Source of the DNA: Bacteroidales bacterium
GTDB taxonomy: Bacteria > Bacteroidota > Bacteroidia > Bacteroidales > UBA932
DNA length: 5,945 bases
Direction of reading: 5' to 3'
Assembly: GCA_017555925.1 (NCBI GenBank)
Contig: JAFZFL010000116.1
Location: forward strand, 1 to 5,945
The notes under the pieces were generated by a model. It worked only from the letters and a program-made list of their open reading frames with translations, was not told where the DNA came from and made no database searches. This document shows, one piece after another, positions 1,573-1,801 of this stretch; position 1 is the first letter of the stretch; every line of letters starts with the position of its first letter. Position numbers and translations under genes: made by a program.

Positions 1573-1605
1573 AAAAAACTTGCTTAACGGTATCCATTAA
1601 GCAAG
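1573..1605 (-). terminator. Intrinsic terminator (attenuator) before ilvD
   Basis: On the minus strand CTTGCTTAA (1605-1597) and TTAAGCAAG (1587-1579) form a perfect 9-bp stem around a 9-nt loop, followed at once by TTTTTT (1578-1573). A G-U and an A-U pair can extend the base into the T run. It lies downstream of the leader peptide gene and 16 nt before the ilvD ATG, on the same strand, so it would stop transcription before ilvD unless prevented. That position, together with the leader peptide, identifies it as an attenuator rather than the end of an upstream gene. Confidence 0.9.
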
Positions 1606-1627
1606 CTCGATATATTACATAATGGAT
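1592..1627 (-). promoter_or_regulatory. Predicted antiterminator pairing of the ilvD leader
   Basis: On the minus strand ATCCATTA (1627-1620) is perfectly complementary to TAATGGAT (1599-1592). The second element contains the last three bases of the terminator's 5' arm and most of its loop, so the two structures exclude each other, and the antiterminator is completed first during transcription. The first element starts 9 nt after the leader stop codon, where a ribosome terminating there should cover it, while one stalled upstream in the Val/Ile/Leu codons would not. The pairing is seen in the sequence; the switching role is inferred by analogy with enterobacterial amino acid attenuators. Confidence 0.6.
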
Positions 1628-1636
1628 TCTGAATCA

Positions 1637-1750
1637 TTATCTGATAATAATGACCGACAGAAGCACCACCACGATGATACTAACCACCTGCTTGCTCATC
1701 TTGCAAAGCAGGTGCGATAGTCTGCACATCGCTGAATAACTTCCTGTCAT
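1637..1750 (-). CDS. Branched-chain amino acid leader peptide (ilv attenuator), 37 aa
   Basis: A short gene encodes 37 residues starting MTGSYSAMCRL and carrying VVSIIVVVLLSVIII at positions 22-36, that is 6 Val, 5 Ile and 2 Leu in 15 residues, followed by Arg and tandem TAA TGA stops. The ATG at 1750 has AGGA at 1757-1760 with 6 nt spacing, one of the few clear Shine-Dalgarno sequences in the window; later in-frame ATGs (codons 8 and 18) have none. It lies directly upstream of ilvD, is followed by a terminator, and resembles in composition the E. coli ilvGMEDA and ilvB leader peptides. The role is to let the ribosome sense charged Val, Ile and Leu tRNA; the peptide itself probably has no function. 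A small hydrophobic membrane protein is the alternative, but does not explain the RNA structures around it. Confidence 0.88.
   Translation of the reverse strand: MTGSYSAMCRLSHLLCKMSKQVVSIIVVVLLSVIIIR
1685..1714 (-). promoter_or_regulatory. Hairpin within the leader peptide gene (possible pause hairpin)
   Basis: CACCTGCTT (1714-1706, minus strand) and AAGCAGGTG (1693-1685) form a perfect 9-bp stem, extended by two G-C pairs past a one-base bulge to leave a 7-nt loop. It covers leader codons 13 to 22, just before the branched-chain codons. By position it resembles the 1:2 pause hairpin of classical attenuators, which holds RNA polymerase until the leading ribosome catches up. Its 3' arm contains GAGCAAGC (1697-1690), which could also pair with GCTTGCTT (1606-1599) of the terminator 5' arm, giving a second possible antiterminator. 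Confidence 0.6.
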
Positions 1751-1793
1751 TTTATTTCCTGATCCAGAATACATGATATTCAAATAAGTGGTA

Positions 1794-1801
1794 CAAATGT
1801 A
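1794..1801 (-). promoter_or_regulatory. Candidate -7 promoter box for the ilvD leader transcript
   Basis: TACATTTG on the minus strand matches the Bacteroides -7 consensus TAnnTTTG exactly. It lies 43 nt upstream of the leader peptide ATG. No good TTTG -33 element is found 19-21 nt further upstream, so the call rests on one box and position. Transcription from here would give a leader RNA of about 200 nt up to the attenuator. Confidence 0.5.

Follow-up and report, generated by a model that had tools for sequence, protein, structure and literature searches.

The region in front of ilvD in the DNA analyzed here (the window, a stretch of 5,945 nt in all) is very probably a ribosome-mediated transcription attenuator of ilvD that senses charged Val, Ile and Leu tRNAs. 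All of its parts lie on the minus strand, in the following order:

1801-1794, minus strand: -7 promoter box TACATTTG of the TAnnTTTG type, read from the sequence and aligned across the clade
1774-1637, minus strand: leader gene, 45 codons plus TAA, MYSGSGNKMTGSYSAMCRLSHLLCKMSKQVVSIIVVVLLSVIIIR, its start homologous to MNS... in L114, L141 and L115
1770-1760, minus strand: segment 1, AUUCUGGAUCA, leader codons 2-5, partner of 1636-1626 (11 pairs, p=0.002 in the window)
1714-1685, minus strand: in-leader hairpin CACCUGCUU / AAGCAGGUG, just 5' of the control codons, from a predicted fold
1687-1643, minus strand: control codons VVSIIVVVLLSVIII, 13 of 15 being Val/Ile/Leu, in a frame kept in the clade
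1639-1634, minus strand: tandem stops TAA TGA, with TAG TGA at the equivalent position in L114, L141, L115 and L144
1636-1626, minus strand: segment 2a, UGAUUCAGAAU, immediately 3' of the first stop, partner of segment 1
1627-1620, minus strand: antiterminator 5' strand AUCCAUUA, partner of 1599-1592 (-8.9 kcal/mol)
1608-1576, minus strand: intrinsic terminator hairpin, 15 bp, loop of 3, -18.3 kcal/mol, with T6 at 1578-1573
1599-1592, minus strand: antiterminator 3' strand UAAUGGAU, within the terminator 5' arm and loop
1556-3, minus strand: ilvD, dihydroxy-acid dehydratase (Pfam PF00920 and PF24877), ATG at 1556, extending past the window edge

This order on a single strand is what the original prediction had proposed, and on rechecking the coordinates we found the -7 box where it had been placed and the 13 Val/Ile/Leu residues in 15 at codons 22-36 of a 37-codon frame that opens at 1750 and closes with the TAA at 1639-1637, with TGA following TAA as the second of the tandem stops. 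The predicted terminator is present, its T6 ending 16 nt before the ilvD ATG, but the stem has 15 bp rather than the 9 bp it had been given. The attenuator had also been called complete; this is supported at the sequence level, although the decisive part, the antiterminator, had gone unnamed. With these corrections, and one to the leader start described below, sequence comparison supports the attenuator reading.

The -7 box is of the form that we take to be the Bacteroidota -7 consensus, and transcription would be expected to start a few nucleotides downstream of it. The ilvD gene matches Pfam ILVD_EDD_N at 4.7e-124, and the gene upstream (2133 onward) is divergent, which leaves no other likely minus-strand gene just before the terminator. 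The in-leader hairpin is possibly a pause hairpin, and L114 and L141, which are the closest relatives, show similar pairing on visual inspection. Elsewhere in the window, at 3423-3388 on the minus strand, a 15-pair hairpin with a T-rich tail, likely a terminator, sits just past the end of a DUF362 gene, at the end of a convergent PhoU-like gene.

Among 5000 dinucleotide-shuffled versions of the 260 nt preceding ilvD, 8 contained an ATG frame reaching 9 of 10 Ile/Leu/Val codons, and the fold of the 231-nt region has z = -6.2 against shuffles; the conservation seen in relatives is much stronger evidence against chance than either of these. A long structured 5' region with this z score could also be expected of a metabolite riboswitch or T-box, a reading to which we give almost no probability: Rfam searches found no match at the locus, nor any with E<=1 when nine related loci were searched, and the clade alignment contains no conserved aptamer-like sequence outside the switch helices. 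The one weak Rfam hit, to a miRNA family at 3115-3060, falls far under the cut-off.

We compared the region upstream of ilvD across several samples, scoring ATG frames of 8-80 codons by the number of Ile/Leu/Val codons in their best 10-codon stretch. The first sample was the best 80 of 596 ilvD-encoding stretches from genome contigs (top ilvD identity 76%), and whole-genome searches were started from the closest of these, reaching ilvD identities of up to 92% (L114, L141). The order sample comprised 295 genomes, 124 of them with an ilvD match, from which 119 upstream regions were examined; the family sample held 149 genomes, 52 with a match, and the genus sample 39, 15 with a match. Scores of at least 7, 8 and 9 were reached by 86, 67 and 41 of the 119 order-sample regions, against 2, 0 and 0 on the opposite strand and 3.10, 0.80 and 0.05 in shuffles. 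The corresponding counts were 28, 23 and 11 for the 48 regions of the family and genus set (opposite strand 4, 2 and 0), and 37, 30 and 16 for the 79 scorable loci among the best 80 of 596 (opposite strand 2, 1 and 0). As the original prediction had expected, related Bacteroidales keep a Val/Ile/Leu-rich short frame with variable flanking codons and a terminator, with the exception of 33 of the 119 order-sample regions, which have no leader scoring at least 7.

Leader-bearing genera among the best 80 of 596 include Bacteroides, Phocaeicola, Paludibacter, Alistipes, Marinifilum and Labilibaculum, and Prolixibacteraceae in that set carry the leader too. Of the loci there with Prevotella or Prevotellaceae in their titles, only 2 of 9 score at least 7. 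Titles with Desulfo-, Electronema, Deltaproteobacteria or Spirochaete/Treponema mark 16 further loci; one is too short to score, and none of the other 15 reaches 7. Of the 15 genus-sample loci, 13 score at least 7; the exceptions are L146, which scores 6 yet can be aligned with the others, and L150, whose contig starts inside the leader, leaving only the Val/Leu-rich end visible. The leader peptide sequences diverge widely while their Ile/Leu/Val content is kept. Because the frame is conserved, the leader is probably translated.

Upstream of ilvD in L067 (same genome as L084), L078, L162, L170 and L239 there are two tandem Ile/Leu/Val frames with a T-run between them. Inspection of the sequence in L067 and L078 gave the order leader, terminator, leader, terminator, and such tandem frames are probably two attenuators in series ahead of one operon.

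Outside the order, in a phylum sample whose ilvD genes are about 50% identical, 10 of 29 loci score at least 7 (opposite strand 0, shuffles 0.7), and the switch looks different in these leaders. In L256, L259, L264-L274 and L276-L280 of that sample we observed a conserved stretch pair like GCCGxTCCCAAGTCC ... GGCTTCGGGAACGGC, located in several loci 3' of the end of a Val/Ile/Leu-rich frame and lacking a clear T-run; this may be another type of switch attached to a similar leader. L253-L255, L258, L263 and L275 have Ile/Leu/Val codons, a stop and then a complementary pair of the type GGTCGATCCC / GGGGTCGACC before ilvD, which is not a simple terminator. Rfam searches of L256, L264, L254 and L263 gave no match.

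The same comparison moves the start of the leader. The original prediction paired an AGGA motif with the ATG at 1750; both are present, but AGGA is not conserved in L114, L141 and L115, and in L115 the position equivalent to 1750 holds no ATG. Reading instead from ATG 1774, in the same frame, yields 45 codons and agrees with these closest relatives, whose leaders open with MNSxTM (L114, L141) or MNSKSS (L115) at the position of MYSGSG in the window. This ATG lies 19 nt from the end of the -7 box, and the ATG at 1750 lies 43 nt from it. Of the 86 order-sample leaders, 66 have a TAnnTTTG box in the 90 nt ahead of them, where shuffles give 6.2; the box lies 14-36 nt from the ATG in 59 of the 66 and more than 40 nt away in one. 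Shine-Dalgarno-like 4-mers precede 2 of the 86, with 3.2 expected. We therefore rejected a start at ATG 1750 with AGGA as the ribosome site, which is not conserved in relatives and has an unusual box distance; the relatives' start, the box distances and the Shine-Dalgarno-like counts indicate that the leader most likely comprises 45 codons and is preceded by a very short 5' UTR that lacks a Shine-Dalgarno site. To our knowledge, Bacteroidota hardly use such sites.

Other amino acid operons of the order were searched in 60 genomes per gene family. His-rich leaders precede hisG in 14-15 of 30 loci (L281-L310; shuffles 0.0, opposite strand 0), and Phe-rich leaders precede pheA-type genes in 13 of 28 (L311-L338; shuffles 0.1, opposite strand 0). 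When the residues were swapped as a control, His frames were found before 0 of 119 ilvD and 0 of 28 pheA genes, Phe frames before 0 of 119 ilvD and 1 of 30 hisG genes, and Ile/Leu/Val frames before 1 of 30 hisG and 0 of 28 pheA genes. No leader was found in 30 thrA loci (of 40 matches), in which the thrA start is usually at the edge of the available sequence. Given His and Phe leaders of this residue specificity before hisG and pheA, the window appears to exemplify a leader scheme that is general in the order Bacteroidales.

Codon use in the leaders differs from that in ilvD. Across 133 leaders, the share of CTA among Leu codons is 19.4%, compared with 2.9% for the ilvD genes downstream; GTC accounts for 46% of Val codons (16.5% in ilvD) and ATT for 76% of Ile codons (41% in ilvD). 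The CTA codons, which recall the rare codons of E. coli leuL, are absent from the window's own control block. All three residues are present in 121 of 128 distinct leaders. A rival reading takes the terminator as incidental and the product of the short gene as functional in itself, a small hydrophobic protein such as a membrane peptide. The Ile/Leu/Val run does look like a transmembrane segment and the frame is conserved, but the block is 78% V, I, L plus S with few F, A, G and M, the Ile/Leu/Val content stays constant while the peptide varies, the control codons are biased toward a rare Leu codon and are followed by an antiterminator and terminator, and the hisG and pheA leaders use His and Phe instead. 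We consider a functional small protein very unlikely and an attenuator leader the far better reading.

An ilvB-like gene lies 3' of ilvD in 8 of 8 loci having enough sequence among nine inspected by eye, with a Pfam TPP enzyme check made for L114. By analogy with these relatives, an ilvB behind the window's ilvD would come under the same attenuator control.

The switch itself consists of two helices, the antiterminator (1627-1620/1599-1592) and the terminator (1608-1576), which both need the terminator 5' arm and are therefore mutually exclusive. In a clade alignment of 14 sequences, 95.8% of terminator cells are paired, and 8 of 12 aligned pairs change on both sides, a result equaled in 0 of 500 shuffles. 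For the antiterminator 5' strand of the window, comparison with 100 shuffled spacers gives p=0.01, and 86.4% of its cells are paired in the alignment; a double change occurs in one pair, matched by 146 of 500 shuffles, and its covariation score is matched by 53 of 500. With little variation in its own strands, the antiterminator is conserved within the clade rather than covarying.

Across the order sample, a terminator was found between leader and ilvD for 76 of the 86 leaders, the scan being negative for the other 10. A strand near the leader stop is complementary to the terminator 5' arm, beating 95% of shuffles, in 60 of these 76 cases, and no significant strand was found in 16. Measured from the leader stop, 47 of the 60 strands begin between -5 and +7; in the window the strand begins 12 nt past the stop codon's first base. 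Pairing is kept although the strands themselves have very different sequences, such as GTGAGAAAGG in Bacteroides and GAATCCATTA in the genus of the window. An alternative antiterminator, formed by AGCAAGC at about 1697-1690 (the 3' strand of the in-leader hairpin) and the terminator 5' arm, is complementary by eye in the window but, again by eye, is not retained in L114 and L141, and was set aside.

From these parts, the mechanism that we propose is as follows. A ribosome would load, with no Shine-Dalgarno site to guide it, on the leader, whose start lies 19 nt past the -7 box. When branched-chain amino acids are scarce it would stall in codons 30-44 (1687-1643), leaving the RNA past the stop free, so that 1627-1620 could pair with 1599-1592 as RNA polymerase makes them; the antiterminator would then occupy the terminator 5' arm and transcription would continue into ilvD. 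When branched-chain amino acids are plentiful, the ribosome would reach the tandem stops and cover or weaken the antiterminator strand, allowing the 15-bp terminator to form and transcription to end near 1573. The direction of this response is suggested by the switch geometry and by known systems.

Folding of the full RNA at equilibrium, which is uninformative on kinetics, always gives the terminator. For nascent RNA ending before the terminator 3' arm, with a ribosome stalled in 1687-1643, the modeled antiterminator probability is at least 0.95 at every position except one, 1687 with the shortest footprint, where it is 0.64. With the ribosome at the stop and its last sense codon in the P site, a +14 footprint gives a probability of 1.00, and a +17 footprint gives 0.66 and weakens the fold from -10.1 to -4.3 kcal/mol. 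Because the shorter footprint leaves the antiterminator intact and the longer one weakens it, blocking by a terminating ribosome is predicted to be marginal in the window. By sequence, the blocking step would be plain in most relatives, in which the strand overlaps or touches the stop.

The antiterminator also forms in the nascent fold with no ribosome (0.988), so read-through could follow from a general lack of translation. This raises the possibility that the leader is a general translation sensor, or that ilvD is under Rho or translational control, rather than Val/Ile/Leu-specific intrinsic termination. We judge this unlikely, since the control residues fit the operon product for three separate genes and an intrinsic terminator with a T-run and covariation is present.

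The least ordinary feature of the locus is a start-to-stop helix, in which segment 1 within the leader pairs with segment 2a past its stop and which compensatory changes preserve in some members of the window's clade. Of the 17 clade members tested, 10 reached p<=0.05, compared with 2 for a reversed control (2 of the 19 members, L143 and L119, were untestable); outside the clade 27 of 111 loci did so, against 10 of 111 for the control, so that sequence comparison supports the helix in the clade and weakly outside. Pairing is kept with other sequences in L115 (AUUCCAAAUC/GAUUUGGAAU), L144, L142 and L147-L149, the last three being close kin and therefore not independent cases. The helix fails the clade test in L116, L117, L145, L120, L085 and L086, and L141 narrowly misses the threshold (0.053); in a wider search, the best match in L141 and L146 lay elsewhere in the leader. 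A more general 'protector' segment against the antiterminator strand was sought in all Bacteroidales and gave 17 of 104 at p<=0.05, the reversed control giving 11 of 104, which does not support such a segment.

In the window the start-to-stop helix adjoins the antiterminator, with two bases common to both, and both form in the nascent fold without a ribosome. The helix may hide the leader start when a ribosome fails to load, or it may brace the antiterminator. We put forward tentatively, and with less than even confidence, a broader proposal: that the ilv, his and phe operons of Bacteroidales use an independently evolved, Shine-Dalgarno-free form of attenuation, and that in the window's clade the helix 1770-1760/1636-1626, stacked on the antiterminator, links the loading and the finishing ribosome to one switch. 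If true, this would require transcription-translation coupling in Bacteroidota.

Leader-peptide attenuation is a textbook readout of such coupling, established mainly in Proteobacteria. The mechanism is already known, and a widespread Bacteroidales set was not found described in the portions of the literature covered by our search. The Bacteroid-trp RNA (RF01692), which we take to be a trp attenuator, likewise acts in cis on an amino acid operon of this phylum; its operon is a different one, and neither the window's ilvD locus nor the nine related loci searched gave an Rfam match. It is tabulated for Bacteroidetes in an excerpt of PMC2864571. Text excerpts of six papers describe no ilv leader in Bacteroidota (PMC7366714, PMC2864571, PMC3766115, PMC6429828, PMC2965389, PMC8305728); one of these excerpts mentions short frames 'reminiscent of leader peptides' in B. 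thetaiotaomicron 5' UTRs, the example being a different one (PMC7366714). A leucine-rich ilv leader of Staphylococcus aureus appears in an excerpt of PMC5794164. Likened by that partial description, it shares branched-chain leader-peptide attenuation outside Proteobacteria and belongs to another phylum. The abstract of a comparative-genomic prediction of amino-acid attenuators by Vitreschak et al. in 2004 reportedly names Bacteroidetes/Chlorobi; those attenuators are of the same class and may include some Bacteroidetes cases, for which priority may rest with that work.

Since over half of the Bacteroidales regions sampled have a leader before ilvD, and His and Phe leaders occur as well, coupling in the phylum becomes directly testable. 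The leaders also offer native amino-acid-sensing parts for gut Bacteroidales and add 128 distinct leader peptides, small genes that standard annotation would probably overlook.

The closest parallels are the enterobacterial ilvGMEDA, ilvBN and leuABCD operons, which have leader-peptide attenuators. The likeness drawn here is one of architecture: a Val/Ile/Leu run, competing antiterminator and terminator helices, and the pathway are shared, and the likeness to leuL lies in the CTA Leu codons of Bacteroidales relatives' leaders, not in the window's block. Unlike the enterobacterial leaders, the Bacteroidales leader has no Shine-Dalgarno site, lies near its promoter and heads ilvD-ilvB, and its antiterminator strand, located at or just past the leader stop, pairs directly with the terminator 5' arm.
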